Source: Richelia sp. SL_2_1
GTDB taxonomy: Bacteria; Cyanobacteriota; Cyanobacteriia; Cyanobacteriales; Nostocaceae
DNA length: 37,866 bases
Assembly: GCA_012033205.1 (NCBI GenBank)
Contig: JAAUSO010000058.1
Span: 1 to 37,866 of the forward strand
Direction of reading: 5' to 3'
A program made the translations under genes and the position numbers. Below the pieces are notes generated by a model, which was not told the origin of the DNA, ran no database searches, and saw only the letters and a list, made by a program, of their open reading frames with translations. This document shows, piece by piece, positions 970-32,134 of this stretch (positions are counted from its first letter, which is position 1; every line of letters starts with the position of its first letter).

Positions 970-1148
970 TTAATCTTTAGTTTTCTCCAAGCCAATCGTA
1001 AGTTGACTAAAATCCGTAACAACAACCCCTAGTAGCAGCGGCTCCTGACTTTCATCTTCCCAAATCCAACTTTTATTAATTTTCTAATTAATAAGCCCTT
1101 TGCTACAAGCATCGGGTTGTAAATATTCATTAATATGCTATTTTCCAT
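970..1148 (-). pseudogene. Frame-disrupted small gene (59 aa if read with a -1 shift)
   Basis: ATG at 1148, four bases past the resolvase stop, opens a frame that ends at 1029 after 39 aa with an unnatural tail (VRSRCY). One base back (-1) the sequence becomes clearly protein-like (SWIWEDESQEPLLLGVVV, then TDFSQLTIGLEKTKD) and stops with TAA at 970-972. The -1 frame is closed by TAG just upstream, so the shift must fall in the A-rich stretch around 1070-1090 (AATTAATAAAAGTT). One extra A there would give one continuous 59-aa protein. Read either as a gene broken by one base, a recoded gene, or a consensus error. The function is unknown. Confidence 0.55.
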
Positions 1149-1149
1149 T

Positions 1150-1617
1150 TTACTTCTCTAGTTCGTTGATTCTAAAATGAAGTTTCAAGTTATACGCATT
1201 AAATCCAAAAGCGAGCATTGCCGCATCCCTTGAATGCTCATTTGTGCGCCCTTCCCAGCCGGTGAGCCTTTTAAAAAAGTCGGCGGTGTATTTTGTTTTG
1301 CCCTTTGCAGGCGGAACGCTTATAAAATTGATGCCCTGTTTTTTACAAAATTCCTCCCAAATGGCACAGTCTCTTTTGATGGAACCGGCTCCCTGGAGTG
1401 CCTCTCTATCCTTGTTGCTAAACCAGGTTCTTTTTCTGGCATCTTCAAACACAAGATAAAGGCAAGCCTGATCCTTGTATTTTTTCACGATATCCATCAT
1501 GTCAAGAATGCCCCCGGATAAAATTTCAAGGAACACCCCTCTGTTACTCAGGTTTTTTACAGCAAGCCCAGTCGTGGTTCCCGGATCAATGCCGATTAAT
1601 ATTTTATCTTTAGGCAT
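1150..1617 (-). CDS. RuvC-like Holliday junction resolvase / RNase H-fold nuclease, 155 aa
   Basis: The N terminus holds the RNase H-fold signature ILIGIDPGTTTGLAV with the first catalytic Asp in IDPG. It is followed by a second acidic strand (LVFEDAR) and, near the C terminus, EHSRDAAMLAFG, which supplies the last acidic residues. This is the layout and size of phage RuvC-like resolvases, which cut branched DNA during recombination or before packaging. I chose ATG at 1617 over the longer reading from 1665: it overlaps the end of the DUF5131 gene by a few bases, and the catalytic strand then starts near residue 5. It is in the same gene run as the Sak4-like ATPase and the PD-(D/E)XK nuclease, which fits a phage recombination set. 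Confidence 0.8.
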   Translation of the reverse strand: MPKDKILIGIDPGTTTGLAVKNLSNRGVFLEILSGGILDMMDIVKKYKDQACLYLVFEDARKRTWFSNKDREALQGAGSIKRDCAIWEEFCKKQGINFISVPPAKGKTKYTADFFKRLTGWEGRTNEHSRDAAMLAFGFNAYNLKLHFRINELEK

Positions 1618-2418
1618 ATTTGTAGGGCATATCTCTAATTTGTAAATCGATTGGAAACTCCTCAATGTTCGAGCCGTGCCTGTCTGACATACCTAGTTGC
1701 TTTGAAAGATGTGTGCCCATCTGCTTTACAAAAACCGGAGTAAGTACACGTATCTCTCCAATCATTTTCGCCATCCATTCCACTTCACAAGGGCGGTAAC
1801 GATATTTCCCGGTTTCATTTCCACTTTCCCCTCCAAAAATTGCCCAATCGATGCGCATCTGAGTAGATAGATCAAAGTTCAAATCAACATATTCAAGCAG
1901 CGGTTCAAATGAAACGAAACGGACAGCAGCCGGAAGTGTGGACAAAATTTCAATCCGGTGCCTGGTATCATTATTTTCAACGGATGTGCCTAGCCACACG
2001 TTAGGATAGCCTTCTTCCCAATCCGATGGTAAGCAACCCAAAATTCTTTCGGGTCGCTTGGTGAGTATCTGGTAAATAAATTCAGGGGTGTTTTTTATAA
2101 TTTCCCAAGCCTCCCCGCGCCAAATGTCAGCTTCCTGTATAAAAAATCAGACCAAGAACAAGTGAATATTCTCATATTTGGGAAAGCTGCAAATGATGGT
2201 TTTAATTTTTCCCCAAGCTTTACATTTTGCATTTGAAAAGACCAATTCATTGGATCGTAAAAAGTTGACTTTGAGCGCAGCACATTACTAGGATCATGTC
2301 CGTATCGCTCTTTATCACGGTACATATAACAAAACTTACATCCGGCACTAACTTTCTTACATCCGTGCCAAGGATTCCAAGTTGCATCCGTCCACTGTAT
2401 TTTTGAGTTTTGAGCCAT
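1610..2418 (-). CDS. DUF5131 (Gp37/Gp68, three-Cys motif) protein, 269 aa, needs a -1 frameshift
   Basis: The N-terminal part (2418-2095, 107 aa alone) has the family hallmark WTDATWNPWHGC followed by a cysteine cluster, C-x6-C-x2-C-Y, near residues 20-30. The C-terminal part (LGTSVENNDTRHRIE, FEPLLEYVDL, WAIFGGESG) is the conserved second half of the same family. The two halves are in different frames. At 2146-2140 the frame-0 codons GAT TTT TTA form a perfect slippery heptamer T TTT TTA, and slipping -1 there gives one 269-aa protein of family length. The first half starts in a TAATG overlap with the upstream stop. The family's biochemical role is unknown; the cysteines suggest a metal or Fe-S site. 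I do not see the TcmP partner that often accompanies such proteins. Confidence 0.8.
2140..2146 (-). promoter_or_regulatory. Candidate -1 ribosomal frameshift site T TTT TTA
   Basis: The heptamer is in the correct phase (X XXY YYZ) inside the DUF5131 gene and joins the two halves of a known family. No strong downstream pseudoknot was identified by eye. A missing T in a six-T run is the alternative explanation. Confidence 0.5.
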
Positions 2419-4259: not shown

Positions 4260-4811
4260 TCAACGCTTTACTAGCAGGACAACACTTCCGCAAAGGAGTG
4301 TTAGGGTAATGAGGAAGGCAAAAAACCAAGTGCTTTTCCCCTTCAACCTACCCTTTTGAACGTCGCTTGCCTGCTGACAATCCTTCAATTCTTTTTGAAG
4401 TGCTTCCACTTGAAGGACAAGGAACTTCTCTCTGCTGGTTTGAATGATGGCACTGGAGGTATCTTTACCCTGAATAAATACGGGAATGATTTGCGCCGGA
4501 ATAGTTACCTCTTTTTGAAACACCACCTTTTTAGCGGGTTGTGCTTTGGCTTCCACGAACCAATCACTCCAGTTTAGGTTAAGGGTATCTTCGGGCAGTT
4601 CAGGACAAGGCACTTCGATAGTATCGGTAACAAGGAAAAGAATCGGATTGGTCTTGATGGTGTCTGATAAAGTGATGGTCTTTACGACTGTGGAATCCTT
4701 GCAAGGGTGGTTGACCTCACACCATTGAACCATTTTTTTTTGGGAAAGGCAGCTTTGTAAGGACATGGAAAGAAAAGCTGCAAAGATTGTTAATAGAATA
4801 ATGTTTCGCAT
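4260..4811 (-). CDS. Candidate unimolecular spanin (lipoprotein with C-terminal TM), 183 aa
   Basis: The N terminus is a type II signal peptide (MRNIILLTIFAAFLSMSLQSC), with a lipobox SLQSC that would acylate Cys21. A periplasmic stretch follows with Cys, Pro and beta-prone segments, then a coiled-coil-like part (LVLQVEALQKELKDCQQ), and finally a C-terminal TM helix (WFFAFLITLTLLCGSVVLL) with a basic end. An outer-membrane lipid anchor plus an inner-membrane C-terminal helix in one chain is the architecture of u-spanins such as T1 gp11, which fuse the two membranes in the last step of lysis. It has its own promoter (4828-4857), nearly identical to the terminase promoter, which fits late expression. 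The holin lies far away at 11.2-11.6 kb. Function is inferred from topology only. Confidence 0.55.
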   Translation of the reverse strand: MRNIILLTIFAAFLSMSLQSCLSQKKMVQWCEVNHPCKDSTVVKTITLSDTIKTNPILFLVTDTIEVPCPELPEDTLNLNWSDWFVEAKAQPAKKVVFQKEVTIPAQIIPVFIQGKDTSSAIIQTSREKFLVLQVEALQKELKDCQQASDVQKGRLKGKSTWFFAFLITLTLLCGSVVLLVKR

Positions 4812-5374: not shown

Positions 5375-5443
5375 AATATTATTTTGTTTTTAGGTAGTTT
5401 ACTTTCTATAAATTACATAGGAGAAATCAAAATAAAATTTCGT

Positions 5444-5592
5444 TCAGCCCTTTCCTTTGCAGCATGGGCAAATTGTTTCAAGGGGTTCTGTACTTCCTTT
5501 TGGGAAATCCATGAACACACCTTTACCATCGCAGCAAGAACATGGCTCCTTTTCTGGTTTGGGTTTGGGTTTTTCTTCTTCTTGCTTTTCAT
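5444..5592 (-). pseudogene. Mini zinc-ribbon protein with two CxxCxGxG repeats, start out of frame
   Basis: One frame encodes two DnaJ-type zinc motifs, CSCCDGKG and CPCCKGKG, separated by about 18 residues, after a Lys/Pro/Glu-rich lead-in (KPKPKPEKEP), and stops with TGA at 5444-5446. This frame is closed by a TAA just upstream and has no ATG, GTG or TTG before the first motif. The natural ATG (5592), right after the upstream gene, is one base out: it reads MKSKKKKNPNP and loses every cysteine. One extra A in the AAAA after that ATG would give MKKQEEKPKPKPEKEPC, a coherent 48-49 aa protein. Read as a -1 recoded, broken or miscalled gene. CxxCxGxG pairs bind zinc in DnaJ and in many small accessory proteins. 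Confidence 0.6.
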
Positions 5593-5603
5593 AATCAACT
5601 TAA

Positions 5604-5621
5604 GGGGGTGCTTTCACCCCC
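5604..5621 (-). other. GC-rich hairpin before the zinc-ribbon gene
   Basis: A perfect 7-bp stem (GGGGGTG/CACCCCC) with a 4-base loop fills the gap between the nuclease stop codon and the zinc-ribbon ATG, ending 11 bases before that ATG. No T-run follows on the minus strand, so it may act on translation or mRNA stability more than on termination. Confidence 0.5.
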
Positions 5622-5627: not shown

Positions 5628-6311
5628 TTATTTTAAAATCAATTTATCAATCAACCCTTTGTATTCAGCGAATTGTATGAAGCTAGTCAGGTATTCCTGA
5701 ACACGGGCTTCAATGTCTGGACTTCTAAAAAAAGTAAAGTCAAATCGCTCACAAGTCTTTTTCAAACCACTGCCTGTAAAATGAAAGATATGGTACTTAA
5801 TACACTTGGCATCTGGATAAGCCATTAGGTACAGTCGCCATTGCATAGATCGCTCATAGAATTCAAATTCAGGCTTTGACCAACTGCTGCTTGTTTTAAA
5901 TTCATGTAGGACTAAAGGCTCAACGGCATCTATGCGCAAGGAATACATTACCTCATACCCAAGTACAGTGTTAACGAATCGCTTTATATCTGGTATCTCG
6001 TATGCAAGATGTGGATAGGCATTGCAAAATTCAATCAAAGGCTCGACTTCTAGTGGGTTCAAGGAAATATCAAAATTGTGTTCATTGTAAAAATAGAATA
6101 CTTCCCCGTATGCTTCCATGCGGTATTTTTCCGGCGTATTTTCCAACATCGAATGTACTGCCCGACCAAGCCAAACAGCTTGGTTTCCCACCTTTACGCC
6201 CTCCAGATAATTGATAACATCTTGCTCAGTTACTTTGCCATTGAATTCCCCATCCATGTAGCAACGCCACTGGTCGAGTATAGATGGGGAAATTTTTAAA
6301 GTCGGCTTCAT
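5628..6311 (-). CDS. PD-(D/E)XK (RecB/Cas4-like) nuclease, 227 aa
   Basis: The catalytic core is visible: LGRAVH around residues 48-53 (the motif with a metal-ligand His), Asp128 in LRIDAV, Glu137 and Lys139 in LHEFKT (the D...ExK signature), and Gln157 in QWRLYLMAY. This is the order found in RecB-family exonucleases. It overlaps the upstream Sak4-like ATPase by four bases (ATGA), so the two are translationally coupled. Phage exonuclease plus annealing/recombinase ATPase is a standard pair for recombination-dependent replication and repair. The Cys cluster of Cas4-type Fe-S nucleases is absent. The family call is confident; whether it is an exo- or endonuclease is inference. Confidence 0.8.
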   Translation of the reverse strand: MKPTLKISPSILDQWRCYMDGEFNGKVTEQDVINYLEGVKVGNQAVWLGRAVHSMLENTPEKYRMEAYGEVFYFYNEHNFDISLNPLEVEPLIEFCNAYPHLAYEIPDIKRFVNTVLGYEVMYSLRIDAVEPLVLHEFKTSSSWSKPEFEFYERSMQWRLYLMAYPDAKCIKYHIFHFTGSGLKKTCERFDFTFFRSPDIEARVQEYLTSFIQFAEYKGLIDKLILK

Positions 6312-7423
6312 TGTAGGACAAGGTTTAGAAATTTCTTGTCAGTCTTGTCGTAAGCAACCTCTTGCTTTTTAGCAGTCACAAGTAAGCGTTTGAACACTTC
6401 GTTCTTGTAATCAGGAAGATTAGGTACTTCGTTTGCAAGGGATGGTAAGATGTCGTTGAAATCTTCAACTGTCTGGAGACCCTCGAAATTGGCGTCCGAA
6501 TAAATGGCGGCAAAGCGGGCGGCGAATGGAGCCCGCAGCATGGCTTGGACAGTTTCCGGCAAAGTGCCAGTATCTCCTCTAAGGGCTTCCAATTCCTGAA
6601 AGGTCTCTACTTCCAATAGCCGAGCCTTTATGGTTTCCACTTGCTCTAAAAATGCTTTTTGGGCATCTGTTAGCGCGGACATATAGTTCTTTGTCCGGTC
6701 AATGAGGTTGGCAAAAAAGGAATCAAATTTAACCGTATCCACGTGGGGCAAAACAGTAGAGCCAAGTTCGGCACTGTCTTTTAAAATATACCCCTGCTTC
6801 GGTCCGAAGGTCAATATCCGGTTCTTTCCTTCGTAATATAAATTTCCAATCAAGTCGCTGGAGCGGTGAATAATCCCTTTTGAACCACCTTTGACATCTA
6901 AGCCGATGCGAGAATCCTCCCCTTGCTTTTCGTGGCAAATCAGGATAACGTCCAAGCCAAGGGCTTGGTGTGCCTTAATGAGCCAATCGAATTCAATAGA
7001 CAGTACACCCCAGCCACTTTGAGATAAGCCGCCTTGAAGATTACCATTCTTAGCATTTTGACTGATAAGCCAAGGCGTAATTGTATCGTCAAGCAGTGTT
7101 CCGCCTGTGTCAAAAATAACTGACTTGTAGCCCGTTTCTTCAATGAACGCAGGCATTTCATTTTGTACGAAATACTTTAAGCCCGTGTAGTCATCAATGA
7201 AAAATGTTTCCGGTCTGCGCTTTTTATGAGCGCGAATAACGCCATTGTCAAAGTCATAGAGGAATGGCATTTTTGAAGTGAATGCCAGGGAGGTTTTGCC
7301 CAAGCCAGGTTCTCCGTAGATGGTAACTAGAAGCGGGCGGAGTGGAATAGATTCGGCGGCAGAAAAAGAGCGAAGCCCTTTTGATTTTTTTGCATTTTTC
7401 GGTTTTTTTTTAATGATGAACAA
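6308..7423 (-). CDS. Sak4-like / RecA-fold AAA ATPase, 371 aa
   Basis: A P-loop GEPGLGKTS sits at residues 37-45, a Walker B-like strand (SVIFDTGG) near 105, and a third core strand (DVILICHEK) near 180 with the conserved polar residue after it. This is the compact RecA-like core of phage Sak4 / AAA_24 proteins, which work with single-stranded DNA and phage annealing proteins in recombination. The core ends near residue 250, and an additional helical C-terminal domain of about 120 residues follows. It lies between an RHH-like gene (3 bp upstream) and the PD-(D/E)XK nuclease (4-bp overlap), driven by promoter P4. The basic N terminus (KKKPKNAKKSK) may contact DNA. Confidence 0.8.
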   Translation of the reverse strand: MFIIKKKPKNAKKSKGLRSFSAAESIPLRPLLVTIYGEPGLGKTSLAFTSKMPFLYDFDNGVIRAHKKRRPETFFIDDYTGLKYFVQNEMPAFIEETGYKSVIFDTGGTLLDDTITPWLISQNAKNGNLQGGLSQSGWGVLSIEFDWLIKAHQALGLDVILICHEKQGEDSRIGLDVKGGSKGIIHRSSDLIGNLYYEGKNRILTFGPKQGYILKDSAELGSTVLPHVDTVKFDSFFANLIDRTKNYMSALTDAQKAFLEQVETIKARLLEVETFQELEALRGDTGTLPETVQAMLRAPFAARFAAIYSDANFEGLQTVEDFNDILPSLANEVPNLPDYKNEVFKRLLVTAKKQEVAYDKTDKKFLNLVLQ

Positions 7424-8511: not shown

Positions 8512-8702
8512 CTACCAACACTCCGTTAGTCGCTTGACGTGGTTTTCAATTTCTTCCTCCTCAATTATTGCCTCCAGTTCTGCCTCAATAGGACGCCATA
8601 GCTTTAGTAAGTCAAATACTTTTGGAGCCTTTGCGTAAATCAAAGCTTGAATCACGCAATCGCGAACATGCTCAATATCCTGCCTGTCGATATATCCACC
8701 AT
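8512..8702 (-). pseudogene. Frame-disrupted small gene (about 62 aa in the -1 frame)
   Basis: ATG at 8702 follows the stop codon of the 102-aa gene directly, but its frame ends after 16 codons. One base back, the frame is convincingly coding through 8512: GGYIDRQDIEHVRDC, an amphipathic helix VFDLLKLWRPIEAELEA, a Glu-rich stretch and a Cys-Trp end. That frame is closed by a TAA just upstream, so no in-frame ATG exists; an internal GTG (after RDC) would drop about 14 good residues. One additional base near ATGGTGG would repair it. It has the same sign (-1) as seven other disrupted genes here. The function is unknown. Confidence 0.55.
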
Positions 8703-9011
8703 TTAAATAATTTTATAATTTTTAAGTAATTCAATATTTGCAAGGTAAACGGGGCAATTATGATCTTCTTTTACCCTTTCTTCTAATTCATCAATGGTTC
8801 CCCAAAAACAACCTGCTTTCACCATCCAATGATCGTTGTGCCAAACGGCAACACATAGCCGACCAGATGTTGGCATCGGACCGAATTGATATACTCCTTT
8901 TGCGCCTTCGAGGTTTGCGCCTTCTGAAATAGCTTTTAATACTAAAGCCTTCATATCTTCTACCTCTGCTTCAAAAATGATTGCATCCGTAAAACGATTT
9001 GTGATTTTCAT
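8703..9011 (-). CDS. Hypothetical protein, 102 aa
   Basis: A compact alpha/beta-looking protein (TDAIIFEAEVEDMKALVLKA, then GRLCVAVWHNDHWMVKAGCF) with two Cys and several Trp/His in the centre. It starts MKITNRFTDAI after a short A/T-rich leader 33 bp past the 72-aa gene. It ends directly at the ATG of the disrupted 8702 gene, so the two were presumably coupled. No family is recognised. Confidence 0.7.
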   Translation of the reverse strand: MKITNRFTDAIIFEAEVEDMKALVLKAISEGANLEGAKGVYQFGPMPTSGRLCVAVWHNDHWMVKAGCFWGTIDELEERVKEDHNCPVYLANIELLKNYKII

Positions 9012-9263: not shown

Positions 9264-9283
9264 GGCAACGTTTTTTTTTAAAG

Positions 9284-9351: not shown

Positions 9352-10137
9352 TTATCTGGCAAAGCAAAGATTGAACTGCAAATGCAAATTACCAATAATC
9401 GTTCTGCCAATGCCGCCGCCTTCCAGAACCCAATCCACAGTTTCCCCATTTGTTTTATCTGAAAAAGATTCAACCCTGGAGCCGGTGATTTTATCCACAA
9501 TTGCAAGGTCGTTTACAGACGCCAGAAAAAGACACAGCCCCTCAAAAGTTTTCAGCGATTCAAAAGCCTGTATTAATGAATCGTCTGTAACGCATTTTAA
9601 AGACGCTGGTAATACTTTATTTTCAACTGGTGTATTTTCACGTCCTGAGAAAGATTCTTTCTCAGTGGAAAGATTAGGCGGCAAATTTTTAATTTCTGTT
9701 TCGTATGGTAAAGTTCCAATTTCGGGAAGTTGGTACTCGGAATCCTCCGAGCGATTAGATTCATTCCAACGATTAATATTAAAAATTGAAAATCTTGGGA
9801 ATAAATTTTTATTGTCTCTTATTTTATTGGGATCAAATCCAAAAATGCTTCCCAAGAATTCCACGTCATCAAGTATATTCACCTTTGTTACTTTCAACAT
9901 GCGCTCTAGTCTTAATATTTCAGGATAAAATACTGAAAAGAAAAGGCTGTCATCCCGTTTATTCGCAGGGGAAAAGAACTTGGCATATACTATTGTCAAT
10001 CCAATCATTAGTTCCTCCGCCGGCGCTTTCCTGATTGACACATCGAACTTGTAAATTTCCTGCATGAACTCCCCGCGCAGGGTTTCCCAAAGCATTTGTT
10101 CAAGCTCAGATACTTGTTTTTTAGTTTTGATTTTCAT
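9352..10137 (-). CDS. Hypothetical protein, 261 aa
   Basis: A soluble protein with a helical N-terminal half (KKQVSELEQMLWETLRGEF, VYPEILRLERMLKVTK-like segments), a polar low-complexity middle (residues about 130-175, rich in Ser, Asn, Glu) and a beta-rich C-terminal part (GETVDWVLEGGGIGRTI). It overlaps the upstream 70-aa gene by four bases (ATGA). There are no catalytic signatures. The domain-linker-domain layout suggests a DNA- or protein-binding early protein, but no family is recognised. Confidence 0.7.
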   Translation of the reverse strand: MKIKTKKQVSELEQMLWETLRGEFMQEIYKFDVSIRKAPAEELMIGLTIVYAKFFSPANKRDDSLFFSVFYPEILRLERMLKVTKVNILDDVEFLGSIFGFDPNKIRDNKNLFPRFSIFNINRWNESNRSEDSEYQLPEIGTLPYETEIKNLPPNLSTEKESFSGRENTPVENKVLPASLKCVTDDSLIQAFESLKTFEGLCLFLASVNDLAIVDKITGSRVESFSDKTNGETVDWVLEGGGIGRTIIGNLHLQFNLCFAR

Positions 10138-10356: not shown

Positions 10357-10526
10357 TTATTTTTTGAATAATTGATCCCAAAGTGCGCCGAATAAATCAG
10401 ATGTGACGCGGATAACAGTAATGGTTTGCCCTTCTATGTTTTTCGTTTTAAGGGTAGAGGCTTGCAAGCGTTTCGTTTGGTAAGCGGGATTTCGTCCGGC
10501 TCTACTGTTGTACCATTGTTAGCCAC
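10357..10526 (-). pseudogene. Small gene split by a 5-bp tandem duplication (54 aa if one copy is removed)
   Basis: GTG at 10526, overlapping the 63-aa stop, encodes MANNGTTVEPDEIPLTKR and then falls into a poor frame ending at 10434. In the -1 frame the following sequence is strongly coding: LQASTLKTKNIEGQTITV, IRVTSDLFGALWDQLFKK, stop at 10357. At the junction the minus strand reads AAACGAAACG, an exact tandem duplication of five bases (plus strand CGTTTCGTTT, 10469-10478). Deleting one copy joins the two frames perfectly as ...PLTKRLQAST. The gene therefore looks recently inactivated, or is a reversible length switch, in the population sampled. The function is unknown. Confidence 0.65.
10469..10478. 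repeat. 5-bp tandem duplication CGTTT x2 causing a frameshift
   Basis: Two adjacent CGTTT units. With a single unit the flanking frames fuse into one 54-aa protein, so this duplication is the likely lesion in the gene at 10357-10526. Confidence 0.65.
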
Positions 10527-10710
10527 TACTTTTATCGTTGCCTTTTCCTTTTTCATCGCTTGATTTTTTTTTGTCGATTTCAGATACAGCTTTCTTTAAG
10601 CCGCTTAATGTTTTTTCCTGCTGTGGCGTGCGCTTCTTTGATCCAATGCGCCGAAGTTCCTCTGCACTTCTTGCCAGCCTCTCCCGTCTTTGCTTATCCT
10701 CTGGTGTCAT
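10519..10710 (-). CDS. Small highly charged helical protein, 63 aa
   Basis: Almost entirely Lys, Arg, Glu, Ser and Asp: MTPEDKQRRERLARSAEEL, then KKRTPQQEKTLSG and a low-complexity tail (KKKSSDEKGKGNDKSSG). This looks like a short nucleic-acid-binding or disordered adaptor peptide. The stop codon overlaps the GTG of the next, disrupted gene. It begins 36 bp after the terminator at 10749-10788. No family is recognised. Confidence 0.6.
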   Translation of the reverse strand: MTPEDKQRRERLARSAEELRRIGSKKRTPQQEKTLSGLKKAVSEIDKKKSSDEKGKGNDKSSG

Positions 10711-15732: not shown

Positions 15733-16758
15733 TTACTGTATGCGAATCCATTTATCAACTGATCCGCCAAAGTATTTATACGCCACACGGCTTCCAGCCG
15801 GAAGCGTCGTAACTGCCGTTCCTACAATCGTCTTACCGTTGCCTGAAATAGTTGAGACTGTAATTTCATTCACTGTCGAAATGCTAGTGATGTAACCATC
15901 AACTGGAGACGCTGGTAAATTAAAAGTAAAGGTAGCTTGCGTGCTTCCTTGATTAATCAGGTTATCCCCTGCAACCAAAGCCTGTGGGCTGGAGGTACTT
16001 GTAATTGCTGTATATGGCTCATAAGCAGGGCTGGCAAGTTTCAATTCACCGTCTGACTTAGCAACAACCACACCCCTGAAAGTGCCGTCAAAGGCTTTTG
16101 TGCTTGCTAAGAAGTCGGAACCTATTTTTTCGTTTGGGTCAAACCAAATTCCTTCACCTGTCGAAAAGGCAAAGTCAAAATTATTACCTTGATGTGCATA
16201 GGTTCGCATACCAATTCCAACCCGCATAAAAGCATAATTTGAGTTGATTGAATCTACTTTTGCTTGTAATGCAAAATTGTTTGACCAACCTGGAATATAA
16301 GGATTGCCTGTTCCACTTACCTTTGTTTCGTCTCCGAAAATTGCCGTCCATTCGCCTTTATGTTGTGCAGATAGCGTATTGTTTGAAGCAAAACCCCACG
16401 CTGACCTGCACATCACTTTTGCGCCTTCGCCCTGGTCGTTATTGCCAATGTACAAACGACCGTCACTCAATCCGATATACCCTTCCCAAAGTTGGTCGCT
16501 CTTATATTTTCGACCAATGGCGTAGGCAAGATTTTGAGTTTTCAGGTAGGTTTCAAGTGCGGTGTAATTTGTGATTACATTAGTCCAGCGATATGAGCTG
16601 TCGGTTTTTATAAGCAAGTCGCCAGGGGTCGGTGTATTTTCACCAGGTGTTGAGAAAATTTGAGCATTAGCAGAAAAGAAGCATAGCGAAAATATCAAAA
16701 GGAAAATAAATTTTTCATTGTTTTTATTATGAATATTAATAATAACAGACAGGCACAT
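15733..16758 (-). CDS. Exported fibre-like protein, 341 aa (start disputed)
   Basis: The mature part begins after a signal sequence FIFLLIFSLCFFSANAQ. It contains a trimeric-fibre-like body with Gly, Asn, Asp and beta segments (GRLYIGNNDQGEGA, GEGIWFDPNEKIGSD), and ends in a small beta domain (PASPVDGYITSISTVNEITV ... KYFGGSVDKWIRIQ), much like the C terminus of the 904-aa protein. The expected ATG at 16718 is out of frame by one base (a five-A run; six would give MKKFIFLL). I list the first in-frame ATG at 16758, which overlaps the upstream gene by 23 bp. Both readings keep the signal peptide. It is a probable receptor-binding or accessory fibre protein. Confidence 0.65.
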   Translation of the reverse strand: MCLSVIINIHNKNNEKFIFLLIFSLCFFSANAQIFSTPGENTPTPGDLLIKTDSSYRWTNVITNYTALETYLKTQNLAYAIGRKYKSDQLWEGYIGLSDGRLYIGNNDQGEGAKVMCRSAWGFASNNTLSAQHKGEWTAIFGDETKVSGTGNPYIPGWSNNFALQAKVDSINSNYAFMRVGIGMRTYAHQGNNFDFAFSTGEGIWFDPNEKIGSDFLASTKAFDGTFRGVVVAKSDGELKLASPAYEPYTAITSTSSPQALVAGDNLINQGSTQATFTFNLPASPVDGYITSISTVNEITVSTISGNGKTIVGTAVTTLPAGSRVAYKYFGGSVDKWIRIQ

Positions 16759-17284
16759 CGCAACTACCTCCACATTCAGCCGTATAAGAAACTTGTCCAA
16801 ATGAGTAACCAGTCGCGTCTTGAACCTCGTACACAATTTGCAATTCCACATAGTTCATCCCATAAACATAATCACATGGAGGACACCCTCCCGTATGTAG
16901 TTGAAGGGTTGTACATAAACCAGTAACAGTTCTGCAATTTTTCCCTGTTACAAATCTTGCCGGAAGACTGACTGTTTTGGTTGGACAGTAAACATAGGTA
17001 TTAGGTATTGTACAAGTTCCACCCTTAGTAACTCGCGTTGTTAGAATTGTTAATTTTTGATACCCTCCTGCTGTGTTCGTTCTGTGAACATTAATATTAT
17101 ATAGATGCAATGTTCCGGTAGTTACATCATAACAATGGTCAAGTGTAATGTACCCAGTTCCTGTACTTCTTTGCTGAACAGCCTCGTCTTTTTTAGGGCT
17201 TGTATTTTCATTTTTTGGATTTTCGCAGGAACTTCCAATAAAGCATAGCACATTAATTAGTAAAAAAAATACTAGATTTTTCAT
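16736..17284 (-). CDS. Cysteine-rich lipoprotein, 182 aa
   Basis: An N-terminal lipoprotein signal (MKNLVFFLLINVLCFIGSSC), with the lipobox GSSC, is followed by a polar linker and a compact domain with about twelve Cys (GGTCTIPNTYVYC, GKNCRTVTGLC, GGCPPCDYVYG, ECGGSCDVPVCYY). The regular Cys spacing suggests a disulfide-stabilised periplasmic or surface domain. It sits between two exported fibre-like proteins inside the virion operon. A surface lipoprotein encoded by a phage could block superinfection, but it could equally be a virion-associated or cell-surface accessory. No family is recognised. Confidence 0.65.
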   Translation of the reverse strand: MKNLVFFLLINVLCFIGSSCENPKNENTSPKKDEAVQQRSTGTGYITLDHCYDVTTGTLHLYNINVHRTNTAGGYQKLTILTTRVTKGGTCTIPNTYVYCPTKTVSLPARFVTGKNCRTVTGLCTTLQLHTGGCPPCDYVYGMNYVELQIVYEVQDATGYSFGQVSYTAECGGSCDVPVCYY

Positions 17285-20845: not shown

Positions 20846-22093
20846 TTAAAAGCCGCCTTTACGAAGTAGATTCGCCATGTTTCCCCATTGCTTCGCCCGC
20901 TGTGGATTGTTCGCAGAGTAGTTGCGAATGCCCGACTTGTCTGGGCTTTTTGCCCCACCAGAAGGCGCACCGGCTTGGTCGTCCTCCTCTTCCTCAGCCA
21001 TTTCCTTGAGCAAGTCTTTAAGGGTGCTAATCAATTCGTCATTGCCATTGTTTTGGATGACTGGCTTTGCGGTATTCGTAGCGGCAACAGGCTTTGGAGC
21101 AGGTGTTGCTTCGGGCTTGGCTTCTTCAACCGCATAGCCTTTGCTTTTCAAAAGCGCCTTTGCCTTTTCCAGTTCCTCCACTTCGCCTGCCTCGTCCGAA
21201 GCCGGTACTTCTTCCTCTTGCTCCGGTAAAGTGGTTTCTCTCGTCTCGTCATCCGTAGCGCTTTGCGCCTCTACCAATGCCTTGATTTGAGTTAAAAAGT
21301 TTTTAAATTTACTGCCTTTCATTTTAGTAGGTTTTTTATTAGAAAATTGATTTAACATATTGACAACCCCTTGGGGCAGTTTGTCCCAAAAATCGGAATA
21401 GTAGCTTGTGTAATAAGAAGCATTTTCAGCATTCAGAAATGGCACCTCGTCCACGATCTCGTCAATCAACCCAACTTCCAAAGCCTGATCTGCACTAAAG
21501 AATTTAGTGTCTGTCATGTACTTGGAAATCAAAGCCTCGGTTTCTGCCCGGCTCCCATTGACCAATTTGCCATTGGCTTCAATCTTATCCACATATATTT
21601 TGACGATCTGGTTTTTCATTTCATCCCCGGCATCCCCTGCTGCACGCACGGCGGAGGCAGAACCGGAAGCAGAAATGATTGGATCGTGAATCATTAGGAA
21701 GGTATTCTTTGCCATTTGAACGCGGGTTTTTCCGCCACGCACTAGGATAATGGTTGCCGCACTGGCTGCCATACCTGCTACAACTGCCGTTACTTCGCCG
21801 GGAAAACCTCTCAGTACATTGCCTATTGCGATGGCTTCGGGTGCATCCCCACCATTGGAATGAATGCGAACAATCAAATGAGTGGCAGTTGTATTGTAGA
21901 TTTGACGAGTAAGCAAGCTTAACCCATAGCCCCAAAAGGCATCAATGTCCTGATAAATTTCAAGGGCTGCCGTGTCTCCATCCTGCATTTTGAAGGAATA
22001 GCGTTGAGAGGTGATGTTATCCAGTTGCTCCACTGACATTTTTGCAACCTCGGCACGGGTAAGATATTGTAAAGGGGAAGCGGTTGTAGGCAT
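20846..22093 (-). CDS. ClpP-like head maturation protease fused to scaffold-like C terminus, 415 aa
   Basis: Start taken at ATG 22093 (MPTTASPLQYL). The ClpP/SppA-type serine protease domain has HSNGGDAPEAIAIGN (oxyanion region), the nucleophile Ser111 in GMAASAA, and His136 in FLMIHDP, with the acidic third residue downstream. From about residue 240 the chain becomes an acidic, Pro/Ala/Glu-rich, coiled segment (EVEELEKAKALLKSKG, then EMAEEEEDDQ) typical of a fused scaffold, ending NPQRAKQWGNMANLLR. Such proteins build the prohead and then cleave themselves and the capsid arm. A weaker promoter-like sequence lies just upstream at 22111-22120. Confidence 0.85.
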   Translation of the reverse strand: MPTTASPLQYLTRAEVAKMSVEQLDNITSQRYSFKMQDGDTAALEIYQDIDAFWGYGLSLLTRQIYNTTATHLIVRIHSNGGDAPEAIAIGNVLRGFPGEVTAVVAGMAASAATIILVRGGKTRVQMAKNTFLMIHDPIISASGSASAVRAAGDAGDEMKNQIVKIYVDKIEANGKLVNGSRAETEALISKYMTDTKFFSADQALEVGLIDEIVDEVPFLNAENASYYTSYYSDFWDKLPQGVVNMLNQFSNKKPTKMKGSKFKNFLTQIKALVEAQSATDDETRETTLPEQEEEVPASDEAGEVEELEKAKALLKSKGYAVEEAKPEATPAPKPVAATNTAKPVIQNNGNDELISTLKDLLKEMAEEEEDDQAGAPSGGAKSPDKSGIRNYSANNPQRAKQWGNMANLLRKGGF

Positions 22094-22122
22094 TACTTTG
22101 CTGATTTTCTTACAAAGTAAAC

Positions 22123-22530
22123 CTAAAACAATTCGTTGTTCACTGCAAAAACAAGACACTCATTTTTTGATATGTCTGGAAAGTCCTCAAATTCAATGTC
22201 AAGCGAAGCCCTAAAGCGTTTTTGGTCGCTTATTAAATTCCAGATCATGCGCTCTTGATAAGGAAGCATATCCTCCAAATTCAGCACTGCCTTTGATTTG
22301 GAGCCGTCGCATCTATATAATTGTTCAGGGTACAATTCCAAAACCATATAGCGGTTCACTGTCCTGAAATCAATAATCAAATGGATGAGCATATATCGGG
22401 CGAAGTTTTCCGGCGTATGTTCCAAATCGCGGGCATCTGCCCATAACTTGAATTTCTTGGTGACCACTCGCACAAAATCAGTATTGGTGTTTCGCTGCAA
22501 AGAATGATCGTTTTTTACTTTTGTTCTCAT
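22123..22530 (-). CDS. Hypothetical protein, 135 aa
   Basis: Start at 22530 (MRTKVKNDHSLQRN) overlaps the stop of the 81-aa gene as ATGA. It is a helical, soluble protein (ENFARYMLIHLIIDFRTVNRY, LNLEDMLPYQERMIWNLI) with an acidic C-terminal part (DIEFEDFPDISKN). The position between the tape measure and the head protease suggests a virion assembly role. No family is recognised. Confidence 0.65.
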   Translation of the reverse strand: MRTKVKNDHSLQRNTNTDFVRVVTKKFKLWADARDLEHTPENFARYMLIHLIIDFRTVNRYMVLELYPEQLYRCDGSKSKAVLNLEDMLPYQERMIWNLISDQKRFRASLDIEFEDFPDISKNECLVFAVNNELF

Positions 22531-22772
22531 TGTGCGCCCTCCCATGCTTTTACGTACAGTCGCATCTTTCCAACCACTTTGGTACGGCAACCCGAACAAC
22601 CTATATCTTCCGGCTCATCTGCCGGGGCAATGTATCGATTGTACACCTCAAATAAAAATTGCATCTCAACTGTATTTAGTTGCGTTTGCACATAAGTTTT
22701 GGCAATGACTGCCGAAACATCTGCCCGGCATTCTTCCGGTATGCGATTGGCATAGTAATAATTAGCATTCAT
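22527..22772 (-). CDS. Small protein with C-terminal Cys pair, 81 aa
   Basis: Start at 22772 (MNANYYYANRIPEECRADV) is preferred over an upstream ATG at 22805 that overlaps the tape measure. A helix (TVEMQFLFEVYNRYIAP) is followed by CSGC and a basic end (RTKVVGKMRLYVK). The CxxC plus a further Cys could bind zinc, but a second pair is missing. It overlaps the next gene by four bases. The function is unknown. Confidence 0.6.
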   Translation of the reverse strand: MNANYYYANRIPEECRADVSAVIAKTYVQTQLNTVEMQFLFEVYNRYIAPADEPEDIGCSGCRTKVVGKMRLYVKAWEGAQ

Positions 22773-22794
22773 GGAATCATTTGTTTTTGAACAA

Positions 22795-25700
22795 TTATAA
22801 CACATTTTCTAAAGTCGCTTTTGCTTGAATCCTGTCCCGATCTTTTAAATCATTCTCAACATCTTCGCTGACAACGAACACGCGCAAGTTGTCCAGCCTT
22901 GAATTGATGGCGTCCGTTTTCCGGTCAAGTGCTTGAATCATTTCCGTAAAGTTTGCAGTGCCTGCATCCTTCCCGGCAAAGTTTAGATAAGGGGCTTGTA
23001 TTGGTGCGCCGATAATGCCGCCGTCCTGAAAGCCAGGTACGCCAATGGCTCTGAATGTTTTTGCACCGCCCAGCAAAGCCTGTTGGCGCTCATTCACAAT
23101 AACCTCTCCGCGCTTCACCGTTGCAATTACATTATCCCCATTGCGAAGGGTGGGAATGTTTTGTGCCGCCACAATGCGCCCATCTGATAAAGCCACAGGT
23201 ACAACTGCGCTTTGGCTCAACACAGCATCTCCTATTGCACGCCCGCCACTGGCAAGGGGCTGCGCGGCAATAGTTGCCGTTTGCAGTGCGCCAAATATAC
23301 CGGCTGCAATAGCCTGACCCGTACTAAAGGGCGGTCCAGGCGGGTTCTTTAAAGCGGTAATGACAGCCAAGGCAGTTTGGATAATAGACTGAATAATGGC
23401 AATGTCTCTTTGCCGCTTCGCAAAATCCCGCTCCGCCTCTATCTTGGCTTGCTTTTCTTTATCCAATTTATCCTGTTCCTGCTTTAGCTGCTTGGAGAGT
23501 TGGAACTTCTGAACCCCTGTGGCACGTTGCAATTGCTCATCCAGGTTGTCAACAACATCTTGCTGTTTCTGAATACGCTCATCATAAGCCTTTAATTCTC
23601 GTTCTTTTTCTGCTTCAAAAAATTGCGATAAAATTTCAGTGCCTTTTTGAAAGAACTCAAAGGCTTGTGCAGCCTCATCCAAAAGCGCCTGACTGCGCTT
23701 CAAGCTTTCCGCCTTTGCCTTTTCCGTTCGCTCTTCCTCAAGCTTGGCAAGTTCTGTGTTTAACTCTTGCCTGCGAATCAGGATGTCATCAAAAGAATCC
23801 GCTTCCGAGTTGGCTAGTATTTCCTGCTGCTTTAGGATAGCCGCCTTTCGAGCTTCAAAAACTTTTGCATCTGCCTCTAGTTGCCGCTTTGTAGCCTCGT
23901 CAGGCGCTTTTGCTCTTGCCTCCTCTATTTGTAACAATTGAAGTTTAAGTCCTTTCTGTGCCTCTGACAATTGGTCTGAGACCGCTTTAAGTCGTTTCTC
24001 CGAATCTTCCTTGTCAAATCGTTTGTTGATTTCCTGTACCTGAATTCGATACCCTTCTTGAATTGCAAGTCGATTGGCAGCGGCTTGCTTTTCGATAACT
24101 TCTAAATCCTTTCCGGCTTTTGCTCTAAAGTCAAGCACTTGCTTTGAATTGGCACCAAATGCTTTTACTAATTCGGCGTCCTGCTCGACTTGCTTTTGCT
24201 TGAGTGTCGCAATCGTTTTATCGATCTGCTCAATCTGCTGGTCAGATGCAAGCTTTGCCCCCGCTAATGCTTGCTGCCTAGCATCTGCAATGAGCTTTAT
24301 CTGCTCATCCAAATAATTCTTACCAAGCTGCACGATCAACATGGAACTTTCTGCCAAGAATTTTTCCTGATCCTTGAGTGCGTTTTCCTGATCCTTTTTC
24401 CTTCTATCTGCTGCCTGCTTGGCTTCGCGTTCGCGCTCCGCCTGCCTTTTCTTTGCCTCTGCCTCCAATTGTTTGGATAACTTTTCTTGCTCTATGCGCT
24501 TCTTTTCCGTAGCATCCGCCGCCTCTTTCAAGTCCGCTTCAATGGCGTCCGCCGCTTCGATCTTGTTGAACTCCTTCAAAAACACTTCCCGGTACTTTGC
24601 CGAAGCTTCTCCGAATGCGACCGCAACCGGTAAGCCTTTCAGGGTATCTTGAAAGAATACTTTCAAGGAAGCCCCTAATCCTTTTGTAGTGGCAGGCAAT
24701 TGATTGAAAAAATCAAGGATGCTTGCAAAAGTATTCAACAGTCCGGCTTTGATGTTATTACTCAGTATAGTTGCCTCTGTTGAGATACCGGCGAAAGATT
24801 TAGCAACATTGTTCTGCGCATCTGCCAGCACTAGGTTTGATTCATAGACTTGCTGCTGCTGCATCTGGTATTCATTGAAACCGGCTGTTACCTCCTCTAA
24901 GGAGCTTTGCGTATCCTGTAATAACTCAATGAAGCGAAGCCCGGCATCTTCTCCCGGCGCGCCAAACACATTTGCAATGACAGACTGTAATTTGTTGGTT
25001 GGGATTTCCGTATTGTTAATCTCCTTTGCTACACGCTTGAGCGCTTCAATTGTAGTCAGCGACCCATCATTGATACCCTTAAAAATATTATCTGTGAACG
25101 TTTTGCCGAACGCACCCTCTAATGAATCGCGCGTAGTGGTAACTTGCTCTCGGATGCGAAGCCCAAACTCTTTTATCAAGTCAACACCTTTATCTGAGAA
25201 GATACCCTCTTTAGTCGCCTTAATGGAAATAGCAATGAACTCGTCCGCACTTGCGCCCGCTGACTTGAATTGTTCCGGATATTCTTTTATCTGATCCAAT
25301 AACTCTCCATTCAGGTTTCCCGTTGCCAGTAGTCCCGTTGCGATTTTATCCAAGGCATCCGAGGTAGAAATTCCAAAGGATTTGGACAGCGCATTTGCAG
25401 CAACTAAAACATCATTAATATCCTCTCCGAAAGTATCGGAAATTGCTTTTGCGCGGGAAACGGTTTCGTCTAGTGCGTTGCCCGTTTCATCCGTGTAAGA
25501 ACTTACTGTCCTTCGTAGGGCATTAAACTCATCGGCAAAAGCTTTCAATTCTTTTACCCCTTCGGCGAGTTGGGAAACCAATTGGAAGGCTAGAAACCCC
25601 CGCGCAATGTTTCGACCCGTCCGAGAGGTAACCTCTGAAATCTCTCCCAAATTATCTTTCAAAGTGCCAAAAAGCGGGAATACCTCCCTCAAGCCTTTTC

Positions 25701-26154
25701 CAATAGCACTGCCATAATTACCGACGCTGCGCTGAAATTGTCCAACGCTTGCATCAATAGATTTAAGGCGGTCATCCTGTTGCTTAATAACTTTCAATAA
25801 TTCCTTTGCCTCATCGGTACTTTCCTGCTCTGCTGCTGCCAGGTCTTTGTAACGCTGCCGATTGACTGCCAATTGGGCGGACAGCTTTCTGTATTGCCCG
25901 GTGACTTGTTCGCCTAGGTCTAGCTCCGCCTGTTTCTTTTTGATGGATTCATTGACCTGAGCATTGATCTCCTTTTGAACTGCCCGTAGCCGGATGTATT
26001 CGGCGTTGAATTTTTTGAAGTCCTCAACGTTGGTTGCCTCTTTTGCCGCTTTCTGGATTTCCTGAATGGCTTGCGCCACAGAGAGACGCAAGTCCGTTAC
26101 CTCTGTTATCCCCTCTACATTGATCTTAAAGCCTAATACTTGTTCTTGTGCCAT
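22795..26154 (-). CDS. Tape measure protein, 1119 aa
   Basis: The longest gene. The N-terminal third is heptad-rich helix (TDLRLSVAQAIQEIQ, ELLKVIKQQDDRLKSIDAS). A middle region has the minor-tail 'TP901 core' pattern (AKAISDTFGEDINDVLVAANALS, GLLATGNLNGELLDQIKEYPEQF). A long Lys/Glu/Gln coiled coil follows (AEAKKRQAEREREAKQAAD and similar), and a C-terminal hydrophobic/Gly part (AIAAGIFGALQTATIAAQPL) with the GGRAIGDAVLS and RRGEVIVNERQQALLGG-like motifs common to Bacteroidota phage tape measures. Length sets the tail: about 0.15 nm per residue predicts a tail near 165 nm, so a siphovirus is likely. Confidence 0.88.
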   Translation of the reverse strand: MAQEQVLGFKINVEGITEVTDLRLSVAQAIQEIQKAAKEATNVEDFKKFNAEYIRLRAVQKEINAQVNESIKKKQAELDLGEQVTGQYRKLSAQLAVNRQRYKDLAAAEQESTDEAKELLKVIKQQDDRLKSIDASVGQFQRSVGNYGSAIGKGLREVFPLFGTLKDNLGEISEVTSRTGRNIARGFLAFQLVSQLAEGVKELKAFADEFNALRRTVSSYTDETGNALDETVSRAKAISDTFGEDINDVLVAANALSKSFGISTSDALDKIATGLLATGNLNGELLDQIKEYPEQFKSAGASADEFIAISIKATKEGIFSDKGVDLIKEFGLRIREQVTTTRDSLEGAFGKTFTDNIFKGINDGSLTTIEALKRVAKEINNTEIPTNKLQSVIANVFGAPGEDAGLRFIELLQDTQSSLEEVTAGFNEYQMQQQQVYESNLVLADAQNNVAKSFAGISTEATILSNNIKAGLLNTFASILDFFNQLPATTKGLGASLKVFFQDTLKGLPVAVAFGEASAKYREVFLKEFNKIEAADAIEADLKEAADATEKKRIEQEKLSKQLEAEAKKRQAEREREAKQAADRRKKDQENALKDQEKFLAESSMLIVQLGKNYLDEQIKLIADARQQALAGAKLASDQQIEQIDKTIATLKQKQVEQDAELVKAFGANSKQVLDFRAKAGKDLEVIEKQAAANRLAIQEGYRIQVQEINKRFDKEDSEKRLKAVSDQLSEAQKGLKLQLLQIEEARAKAPDEATKRQLEADAKVFEARKAAILKQQEILANSEADSFDDILIRRQELNTELAKLEEERTEKAKAESLKRSQALLDEAAQAFEFFQKGTEILSQFFEAEKERELKAYDERIQKQQDVVDNLDEQLQRATGVQKFQLSKQLKQEQDKLDKEKQAKIEAERDFAKRQRDIAIIQSIIQTALAVITALKNPPGPPFSTGQAIAAGIFGALQTATIAAQPLASGGRAIGDAVLSQSAVVPVALSDGRIVAAQNIPTLRNGDNVIATVKRGEVIVNERQQALLGGAKTFRAIGVPGFQDGGIIGAPIQAPYLNFAGKDAGTANFTEMIQALDRKTDAINSRLDNLRVFVVSEDVENDLKDRDRIQAKATLENVL

Positions 26155-29500: not shown

Positions 29501-29504
29501 AGCG

Positions 29505-29996: not shown

Positions 29997-30538
29997 AGCA
30001 ACACATTTATATTATTATTAAATTGAACCAAGGTAAAAATAATACTTTGCTCTACGCCGGATAGTATCAATTCCGACAATTCATCTTGTATGCTGTCCAA
30101 TCCGCGTTGTATAAATCCCGTTCGTTCGCCGGTCTTTGAATACCTCTTTGAATCCCGGTTTGGAATCCCGCCTTCCCCTTCCCGAATCGCTTTGGATGCA
30201 ATGGCGAATGCTATACTTTCGGCTTCTTTTCGGCTCACCCCAAAGCGTTTGCTCGCATAATCCGTTAGCCCTTCGATGTACTTACTTTTGCCGCCGCGTT
30301 TACTGCCGGGTGTATAGGCTACCCTGGAGGGCACAACGCCGTCATCAATTATTTTGACATATCGGTCAACATAAAACTCAAAGGAAATACCGGAAGCGGT
30401 TTCAATGATTTTTTCCTCAATGCTGTCAGATGAAAACTTTCCAGTCAGCTTATGCCCTTGCCTTTCCCAAATAAGCACAACCGCCGCCTTTGCGCGTTCG
30501 ACTATCAATCTTTTAATATCGTCTGAAAATCCAATCAT
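29993..30538 (-). CDS. HK97 gp10-like tail completion protein, 181 aa
   Basis: Characteristic phage pattern: KRLIVERAKAAVVLIWERQ, DDGVVPSRVAYTPGSKRGG, KYIEGLTDYASKRFGVS, EAESIAFAIASKAIREGEG, then IPNRDSKRYSKTGERTG. Proteins of this kind (HK97 gp10-like) are found where the tail joins the head and help tail completion. ATGA overlaps at both ends place it in a tightly coupled block with the tail-terminator-like 195-aa gene and the membrane protein. The identification is by position and pattern; no enzymatic motif. Confidence 0.65.
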   Translation of the reverse strand: MIGFSDDIKRLIVERAKAAVVLIWERQGHKLTGKFSSDSIEEKIIETASGISFEFYVDRYVKIIDDGVVPSRVAYTPGSKRGGKSKYIEGLTDYASKRFGVSRKEAESIAFAIASKAIREGEGGIPNRDSKRYSKTGERTGFIQRGLDSIQDELSELILSGVEQSIIFTLVQFNNNINVLL

Positions 30539-31122
30539 GCTCCTTGCTCGTAAGTGTTTTCATAATCTTCATTTGCAGCCGGTGGGTAATTATACCCAAC
30601 GGATGCTATCATTTCATCCGTTACAGTCCAGGCGGGGCATTCAATTTTTACAAATACGGTGAATCGAAAGTAACAAGTGATGAGCCTATCGGCATACAGG
30701 TTTGAATCTAATCCCCATCTAAAGCGTCCTTTGTTTACGAGTTGAGCGCCGCCATTGACAGGAGCCAATTTCATACCCAATTTAGAAGCCGCCTTTAGGA
30801 ATTGAATACCCGTCGTTTTTAATTTATTCCACTGCTCTAAAGAGGTGTCAGTCAAGGTTTGCCCATCATTGCCGTAATGAAGCAGGTCATCAAAATAAAG
30901 GGTCACATCAATTTGTTCGCCTGCATCTTCCAAGGTAGCTTCCCCGGTCAATGCCGCTTGGCAGTGTACACGCGGATATAGGTTCCCAACTTGATTCTCA
31001 GGATCGAAATTATTTTGCACACTTCGGTTGACATCCGAGCGCCAACCAAAGTGATAGCCTTTCAAATCAGGATGCAATTGAGTAAGCAAGTTGAACAGGT
31101 TAGATAATGCGACAATGGTCAT
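30535..31122 (-). CDS. Tail-terminator/head-tail joining-like protein, 195 aa
   Basis: Mixed alpha/beta, soluble protein: LSNLFNLLTQLHPDLKGYHFG at the start, a central DVTLYFDDLLHYGNDG, and a beta-rich end (ADRLITCYFRFTVFVKIEC). It begins in an ATGA overlap with the stop of the shifted chaperone frame, and ends in one with the gp10-like gene. In siphoviruses the tail terminator precedes or follows these genes. The size is right, but I cannot identify the family with certainty. Confidence 0.55.
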   Translation of the reverse strand: MTIVALSNLFNLLTQLHPDLKGYHFGWRSDVNRSVQNNFDPENQVGNLYPRVHCQAALTGEATLEDAGEQIDVTLYFDDLLHYGNDGQTLTDTSLEQWNKLKTTGIQFLKAASKLGMKLAPVNGGAQLVNKGRFRWGLDSNLYADRLITCYFRFTVFVKIECPAWTVTDEMIASVGYNYPPAANEDYENTYEQGA

Positions 31123-32134
31123 TCTACTTCGTTTAAAGATTGAATAAAATCAAACTCAGCACTTCGGGCACTCATGTAATGAAAGGCATCCCATAGCGGC
31201 GCAAGTTCGGCGGAGCGAAGCGGCGTTTCATTTGGCAGGTTGAAAATGCCCGCTTCTGCCAAATTTTTCAGGGCTAAGAACCACCCGTAGTTTTCTTGTA
31301 GTTTGTTGATCCCGGCTTGGATAAAGCGAGCATTTGCGCCATTGAATAAATTAGGGAACTTCTCCCTAATTGCTCGCTTCGCCTCAGCAAAAAAAAAGCG
31401 ACGTTTACCACTACGTCTAATGGCAGCCTTTCAAAGTTTGCCTTGTTTCGTTTATAGATGTTGGAGGAATAGACCTCCCCTTCTTTTTTTAAAAGCACAC
31501 AACACACATCTAGCATTGCCGTCCATGTTCCGTTCTGTACTTTCTGCATTTGCGCTTGTAGCTGAGCGGATTCCATAAACTCAATCACATTCCCATTTTT
31601 CATCAATCGCTCCGGTACAACGTACACATCCCCCTCAAAGACAAACTTATTCTCATAATCATACTGGTATTCCTGCACGTCCATTGAACGGATAATAATT
31701 TCATACACTGCTTCCAATTGATGCGGGTTCATCCCTTGAATGCCCGGCATCATACCCATAATGGCTGCGTATGGAAGCCCCGTAAAAAAGGAAACCACAC
31801 GGGCAAAGTGTGGAAGCATTTCATGCGTGTAGTAAACCTGGTCAATACTCGTAAGCCATTCCAATCGCTGCGATATGATTGCCGCTTTCTTTTTCGTCAA
31901 CTCCTCAAACTCGGCTTGCTTGTTGGCGGAAACAATTGTCCTTCCTTCAAAAGCCTTGAGTGCAAGGTCAATCTCCTCCTCCTCAATGTAGGCATTTTTG
32001 ATCTGCCGTAAGCGGAGCGGCTCCTTGGGAACCAACTCCTCCAGATAACCCAAAAACTTCCCGAACGTGTGGTCGGAAAGTTTTTCAGGATAAGCAAAAG
32101 TACCCTCTACGCCTTTGACTGTGAAAAGTACCAT
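31119..32134 (-). CDS. Tail assembly chaperone-like protein with -1 frameshift, 338 aa (286 aa unshifted)
   Basis: The first ~246 residues (FTVKGVEGTFAYPEKLSDH, RQIKNAYIEEEEIDLALKA, VSFFTGLPYAAIMGMMPGI) are helical and common to both products. At 31397-31389 the minus strand has nine T, in phase as GCT TTT TTT TTG. Without a slip the frame ends at 31274 with a weak tail (LLRRSEQLGRSS). A -1 slip gives FFFAEAKRAIREKFPNLF and continues as a coherent 92-residue domain (INKLQENYGWFLALKNLAE ...) to a TGA at 31119 that overlaps the next gene's ATG. Tail chaperones of the lambda G/GT type are classically made by a -1 slip, so this is the best explanation, although here five genes separate it from the tape measure. 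Confidence 0.65.
31389..31397 (-). promoter_or_regulatory. Slippery run of nine T (candidate -1 programmed frameshift site)
   Basis: In-phase heptamers T TTT TTT and T TTT TTG both fit the X XXY YYZ rule. Both reading frames remain coding on their own side of this site only, and the shifted frame meets the next gene in an ATGA overlap. Confidence 0.65.

Follow-up and report, generated by a model that had tools for sequence, protein, structure and literature searches.

Contig JAAUSO010000058.1 of the draft genome assembly GCA_012033205.1 (Richelia sp. SL_2_1) is 37,866 nucleotides long and, by the family matches of its proteins, is a tailed phage; the whole contig is called the window below. 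An initial annotation, made from the sequence, listed eight genes in it (sites 1 to 8, Table 1) with two protein-like frames that join only by a step of one base back, and frames in this -1 relation are present at all eight places. It offered either extensive recoding by the phage or systematic one-base undercalls in the consensus, each of which turns out to fit part of the set: recoding applies to site 8 only, while undercalls hold for the assembly as a whole and give the best account of sites 1 to 7. The joint reading, which is very probably correct, is that site 8 is a conserved programmed frameshift and that sites 1 to 7 are consensus errors. From a frameshifting perspective the contig illustrates a way to tell programmed frameshifts from assembly errors side by side, by recurrence in relatives and by reference to co-assembled DNA of another organism.

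A conserved frame change at nine T

Site 8 combines a long zero-frame open reading frame (ORF) with a shorter domain in the -1 frame. In every locus that has both pieces (47 of 47, forming 15 clusters at a crude ungapped cut of 93%) the second frame is at -1, and in all 47 relatives, as in the window, the frame change is at nine T, no more and no fewer, and then a G. The -1 domain served as query for a second search, which yielded 73 loci (about 14 clusters, with 51 of the loci repeating a stretch already seen), and T9G is directly 5′ of the domain in each of them, down to 32% protein identity. Because of this recurrence in relatives site 8 is taken to be real, and on such comparative grounds it is evidently a conserved programmed -1 frameshift and not an error.

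The 20 codons just past the run are 39% identical between 25 distant pairs when read in the -1 frame and 21% identical in the zero frame, with near pairs giving about equal values (78% and 75%). Past the run the differences lose the third-position bias that they have upstream (165, 202 and 218 as against 1193, 799 and 2382). As judged from these alignments, the downstream frame is under selection at the protein level. There is no ATG in the -1 frame in any of 48 loci; a TTG is present in 39 of the 48, at or past the zero-frame stop and too late for the conserved first part of the domain to be made from it. Most of the product would then end at the zero-frame stop, after 286 amino acids, and a fraction would change frame by -1 at the T9 run, gaining the domain of 89 amino acids. 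Short and long forms would result as with lambda gpG/gpGT, both products and the role in tail assembly being predicted ones.

Frameshifting of the -1 type in tail assembly chaperone genes is reportedly the subject of work by Xu, Hendrix and Duda in 2004. With lambda gpG/gpGT and other such cases, as they appear in passages of PMC5009743, site 8 shares a -1 frame overlap that is kept by relatives, the expectation of a short major and a longer minor product, and a place on the same strand as the tape measure gene and upstream of it. It differs in that its frameshift site is nine T, in that five ORFs separate it (31119) from the tape measure gene at 22795-26154 instead of direct adjacency, and in that neither its sequence nor its fold matches a named chaperone. 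Pfam gave two weak matches under its cut-off, PHROG none at E 0.01 and, at E 0.1, five weak ones of unknown function among 16 members, and Foldseek none in PDB at E 0.001, with the viral proteins in its best 50 matches nameless or uncharacterised. A PDB profile match to 9hnh_A (E 0.0006) was set aside as resting on short repeated stretches. The site 8 protein appears to resemble gpG/gpGT in plan; membership among the tail assembly chaperones is not established, and the family has no recognised name.

A distant cousin came from structure comparison. With a model of the zero-frame protein (mean pLDDT 75.9) Foldseek returned, at rank 18 and E 0.0035, a 175-amino-acid protein of Nonlabens phage P12024S. 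Gene 40 of the sister phage P12024L encodes 175 amino acids and is nearly identical in P12024S, and we infer that the match is to the same protein. In P12024L gene 40 a T9 run is followed by A and is placed one base differently with respect to the frame, and the -1 frame runs on into a domain bearing a similar WGWY motif; gene 40 is the probable counterpart of the site 8 gene. Gene 43, tried first, was the wrong gene, and tblastn in phage records with the -1 domain, and with the zero-frame protein of one relative, gave no match. As a side observation on P12024L itself, the T9 run and the -1 domain suggest that its genes 40 and 41 (L010:24388-24640), annotated separately, form one frameshifted gene. 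The analysis points to a T9 frameshift gene conserved in phages of Bacteroidota type.

Ribosome or RNA polymerase

A ribosomal -1 shift is slightly ahead of transcriptional slippage as the mechanism at site 8. A ribosome could slip on U UUU UUU or on U UUU UUG, and the former is in frame in both the window and P12024L, which suffices for a ribosomal shift. Slipping of RNA polymerase on the nine T, with addition of a U, is nevertheless a live contender, with a chance somewhat short of even. The run is exactly nine long in all 73 loci and again in P12024L, where it survives in another phase relative to the frame, though the loci are related by descent. The codon that ends in the first T varies (GCT 35, GGT 35, TCT 2 and TAT 1 among the 73 loci) with only its last base, T, being constant, which also speaks for the polymerase. 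The window does have strong potential for a fold downstream (z -2.26 for 81 nucleotides, -1.34 for 125), which counts against the polymerase, but it is not conserved: z ranges from -1.72 to +0.74 in six relatives and a compensatory change was found in one of ten predicted pairs, and a conserved stimulator structure was rejected, which counts in the polymerase's favour.

According to parts of PMC5009743, runs of nine A or T slip efficiently in bacteria, and according to parts of PMC1088944 many genomes clearly show selection against A/T runs at a length of nine. In keeping with polymerase slippage on a retained run, the 47 relatives have few other A/T runs (12 of nine and two of ten in 873,306 bases); against it, the window has six others of nine, three of them inside ORFs, and so such runs are not rare there. 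That A/T runs of nine are far denser in the window than in these relatives is an observation in its own right. Transcriptional slippage on nine A or T is described for Thermus dnaX and for IS elements (PMC5009743 and PMC1088944, in part). Site 8 is like these in having exactly nine T at the frame change and no conserved stimulator, and unlike them in being a phage structural-module gene, in having a ribosomal heptamer as well, and in being known from DNA alone. Among the titles and openings of abstracts listed in a literature search, none described slippage on nine T or frameshifting at T9 in the tail genes of phages. The fuller proposal, that freshwater phages of Bacteroidota type and their distant marine cousin P12024L make a short and a long tail-assembly-like protein by polymerase slippage at a selected, exact T9 in place of the usual ribosomal frameshifting, is more tentative still. 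The gene lends itself to a simple test of ribosomal versus transcriptional slippage.

Missing bases in phage and cyanobacterial contigs

The situation at site 7, in the tail module, is the reverse of that at site 8. Its second piece was found in 61 IMG/VR relatives, and in all 58 of the loci that match both pieces these are in one frame with no stop between them. Among the window frames with relatives (those matched in at least three of the site 7 loci; 15,085 bases in total), this is the sole pair of neighbours that forms one open frame in the relatives. Among 291 genomes of the order the first piece matched its own genome only, and the second piece was found in two short metagenome contigs in GTDB. 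At site 2 the two pieces match consecutive parts of PF07505, and by that evidence the gene encodes one DUF5131 domain cut mid-way. Singleton frameshifts in public genomes were taken as sequencing errors in the GeneTack survey (PMC3711429, as excerpted). The likeness here is that the site 7 frame change is absent from relatives and that the site 2 change cuts one domain; the difference is that a direct control is provided here by co-assembled contigs from a second organism.

That organism is a cyanobacterium, since its draft genome (7.55 Mb in 359 contigs, of which the window is contig 91) has ten matches to the photosystem II family PF00421 and none to SusD, a Bacteroidota family. A codon-pair frameshift scan, with one model for all genomes, was applied to 606,021 bases (40 stretches) of this assembly and to three genomes of the same genus. 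At its middle setting it gave 19 events in this assembly, 13 of them -1 and six +1, as against one in 240,488 bases, one in 200,000 and none in 200,000 in the others. The loose setting gave 55 (36 of -1, 19 of +1) against 14 (8 and 6), and the strict setting eight (7 and 1) against two (0 and 2). In simulation the middle setting recovered 21 of 60 losses and 16 of 60 gains, so that a sign bias of the method fails to explain the excess. An earlier and smaller run (seven events in 281,630 bases, all -1 and none in the window) is superseded by this one. Frameshift candidates are many in the cyanobacterial draft contigs, C6, C18, C25 and C196 among them.

Ten of the 19 event pairs were run against Pfam. 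In three of them both pieces match one family in the order fitting a cut gene, namely ferrochelatase, CorA and the large chain of carbamoyl-phosphate synthase, and the other seven were uninformative; a photosystem II family gene is likewise split over two overlapping frames. Carbamoyl-phosphate synthase is normally essential. A search for the oligomerisation domain found no large-chain gene in the genome other than the cut one, for which matching DNA is present in seven of seven same-genus genomes (85-97%), in two pieces in one of them. Ferrochelatase also has matching DNA in all seven (86-97%), and the photosystem II gene, at 88% or more, in three; ferrochelatase was at one point put forward as an essential broken gene, which was withdrawn with the finding of a whole second copy elsewhere in the genome.

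Single-base differences were also compared three ways over 38,245 bases aligned with both G001 and G002, counting those that are cleanly isolated and specific to one of the three. This assembly has five missing and no extra bases in coding sequence, and two missing and one extra outside it; G001 has none missing and three extra in coding sequence, with two extra outside it; G002 has no coding differences and one missing and two extra non-coding bases. The five missing bases are in runs of three to six, with one such run scoring as 1 in one of its two comparisons.

One-base undercalls are well supported for the assembly as a whole. They explain sites 2 and 7 well and the other sites plausibly, keeping in mind that some small ones may be overlaps or misjudged starts. 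Because the co-assembled cyanobacterial genome has the same missing-base breaks, sites 1 to 7 are read as sequencing errors. Single bases would have been lost from the consensus, mostly at short homopolymer runs, and whole genes would look cut, always in the same direction, by a defect common to the phage and the cyanobacterial contigs. For sites 2 and 7 the probable cause is sequencing and not mutation. Reliance of the phage on recoding throughout, or at most of the eight sites, is highly improbable: site 8 is recoded and the run at site 2 reads, by inspection, as a slippery heptamer, but site 7 is a single open frame in every relative and the same type of break occurs in cyanobacterial contigs, which are beyond the reach of phage recoding. 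Real mutations at sites 2, 7 and some others, in a decaying or mixed phage population, are unlikely. Loss of one base in a run is a common natural mutation too; the same bias, however, is present in an independent chromosome of the same assembly, and extends to its only found copy of the carbamoyl-phosphate synthase large chain.

Several points weigh against the joint reading. Undercalls were judged from assembled consensus sequences and not from reads, which leaves room for real mutation, and the site 8 products are predicted from sequence alone. The scan of this assembly also gave the six plus events, and the breaks in ferrochelatase and the photosystem II gene could be real pseudogenes, since the former has its whole second copy and the latter whole family members. 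Three of the five missing coding bases are in regions picked for an already noticed break, so that the unbiased yield is two. Without the filter, single-base gaps are nearly balanced (60 as against 56 with G002, 51 as against 41 with G001); inside ORFs of the other genome the counts are 11 as against 4 and 11 as against 9. With a rate of two to five missing coding bases in 38 kb, the window should have a few breaks, and seven are claimed; the five doubtful ones crowd outside the part with relatives, above what that rate predicts, and so some of them may be ordinary overlaps. In the cyanobacterial assembly gene breaks should not be taken as pseudogenes without reads, and pseudogene counts from this draft are to be doubted.

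The five smaller sites

That eight genes are disrupted, as the initial annotation had it, is backed by homology at sites 2, 7 and 8 and otherwise, at sites 1, 3, 4, 5 and 6, goes back to open frames and codon scores; of the sites read here as undercalls, 2 and 7 are the ones at which a broken gene is shown. Comparison with relatives, which it proposed as a check, was informative for site 7 (one frame, 58 of 58) and site 8 (-1, 47 of 47), the other sites having no informative relatives. The agreement in sign of eight out of eight, which it considered notable, is weaker than claimed. It is an unfair sample of signs, since site 8 is programmed and must come out of the count, ordinary gene overlaps of the ATGA and TAATG type likewise produce a -1 relation, and an unsupervised codon scan of the window is mixed in sign, with four minus and three plus events at its loosest setting.

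We infer for sites 1 and 3-6 the same cause as for sites 2 and 7. That several of them are instead overlapping genes, misjudged starts or chance open frames, and not disrupted genes, is quite possible, if not quite an even chance. Pfam and PHROG searches with their pieces gave nothing or weak matches under the curated cut-offs, and there is no informative homologue for any of the five. At sites 3, 4 and 6 the frame change is, by inspection, within about ten codons of the likely start, so that a misjudged start is the alternative there. The codon score at site 3 is below zero, and among the events of the loosest unsupervised scan one is near site 4, another, of plus sign, is near site 6, and none is at sites 1, 3 or 5. 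On the side of disruption are clear codon scores in the claimed downstream frame at sites 4 and 6, and modest ones at 1 and 5; the upstream segment of site 5, scored in a wrong frame, is left out of account. Such scores are weak evidence, being negative in the claimed frame not only at site 3, for its long piece, but also at site 2, where the N-terminal piece is real by homology. Site 6 is inside the module with relatives, though its own part of it had no matches. The first 11.6 kb, where five of the seven claimed undercall sites fall, has runs of at least five bases at about twice the density seen elsewhere (10.1 as against 5.3 per kb).

The scan is of limited help with these sites. With successively tighter settings the unsupervised version retained sites 7 and 8, then site 8 alone, and at its strictest none. 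With a model from relatives, the loose setting gave two -1 events in the window, one inside the site 7 gene and one, off the list, at 9559, and the strict setting gave no event. Applied to the relatives themselves (1,054,457 bases) this model found site 8 seven times at the loose setting and once at the strict, alongside 34 and four other events, with even signs at the loose setting. Because site 8 was so seldom recovered, the scan is judged insensitive when applied to phage DNA. There is no support for a ninth break at 22123-22805, where the two ORFs are in different frames in 43 of 43 relatives. The pair is itself curious, overlapping at -1 in the window and at +1 in all 43.

Table 1. Frame-change sites, phage genes and other A/T runs of nine in the window
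Feature	Position	Strand	Evidence or remark
Site 1, two short overlapping frames, status uncertain	970..1157	-	neither piece matches a family
Holliday junction resolvase	1150-1665		
Site 2, C-terminal piece, DUF5131 gene	1610..2146	-	PF07505 positions 89-225 of 243
Site 2, N-terminal piece, DUF5131 gene	2095..2418	-	PF07505 positions 1-86 of 243
Site 3, two short frames that overlap, one (51 aa) cysteine-rich	5413..5613	-	DnaJ-type and Q-like matches, all weak (sub-cut-off, or best E 0.004)
Sak4-like protein	6308-7423		
Site 4, 66-aa frame, no ATG near start	8512..8712	-	no PHROG match, weak sub-cut-off Pfam matches; codon score 4.8 in claimed frame
Site 5, two short overlapping frames	10357..10595	-	no PHROG match, one weak sub-cut-off Pfam match
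Portal	12190-13683		
Site 6, long open frame of 373 aa between stops, start alone doubtful	15733..16854	-	codon score 25.4 in claimed frame, no family match
Head maturation protease	20846-22159		
Tape measure	22795-26154		
Site 7, second piece, stop-to-stop frame, 293 aa	26158..27039	-	found in 61 IMG/VR relatives
Site 7, first piece, tail-module gene, 430 aa	26958..28250	-	one open frame with second piece in 58/58 relatives
Site 8, -1 frame domain, 89 aa and stop	31119..31388	-	conserved domain
Site 8, putative frameshift site, nine T (sense strand) then G	31389..31397	-	same run in 47/47 relatives; directly before -1 domain in 73/73 loci
Site 8, zero-frame ORF, 286 aa, upstream part of predicted programmed frameshift gene	31274..32134	-	homologues in 48 of the searched loci; alignment
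Large terminase	33231-34718		
Other A/T runs of nine	893-901, 4733-4741, 7403-7411, 9271-9279, 10564-10572, 14009-14017		three inside ORFs

The phage and its host

The overlap of 127 bases between the ends of the contig, claimed by the initial annotation, is exact, the first and last 127 bases being identical; the identical ends suggest a circular molecule assembled with k = 127. Among the matches listed for the terminase the best are to phages of Croceibacter, Chryseobacterium and Cellulophaga (32-35% identity), with Roseobacter phages close behind, and on this basis the window probably represents a phage that infects a Bacteroidota companion of the cultured cyanobacterium and not the cyanobacterium itself. 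With the first 25 kb of the window as query there were no close relatives by DNA among phage records. As a bait the terminase gave no pattern match in IMG/VR and was found in three of 100 genomes, its own counted, and the gene at 9352-10137, used for the early region, gave no relative. A terminase alignment kept 80 loci of 551, at 29-38% identity, and was of little use for the eight sites. Contigs of this phage group (L152 and L153) are also present inside metagenome bins labelled Actinomycetales and Alphaproteobacteria, where they are probably misbinned.

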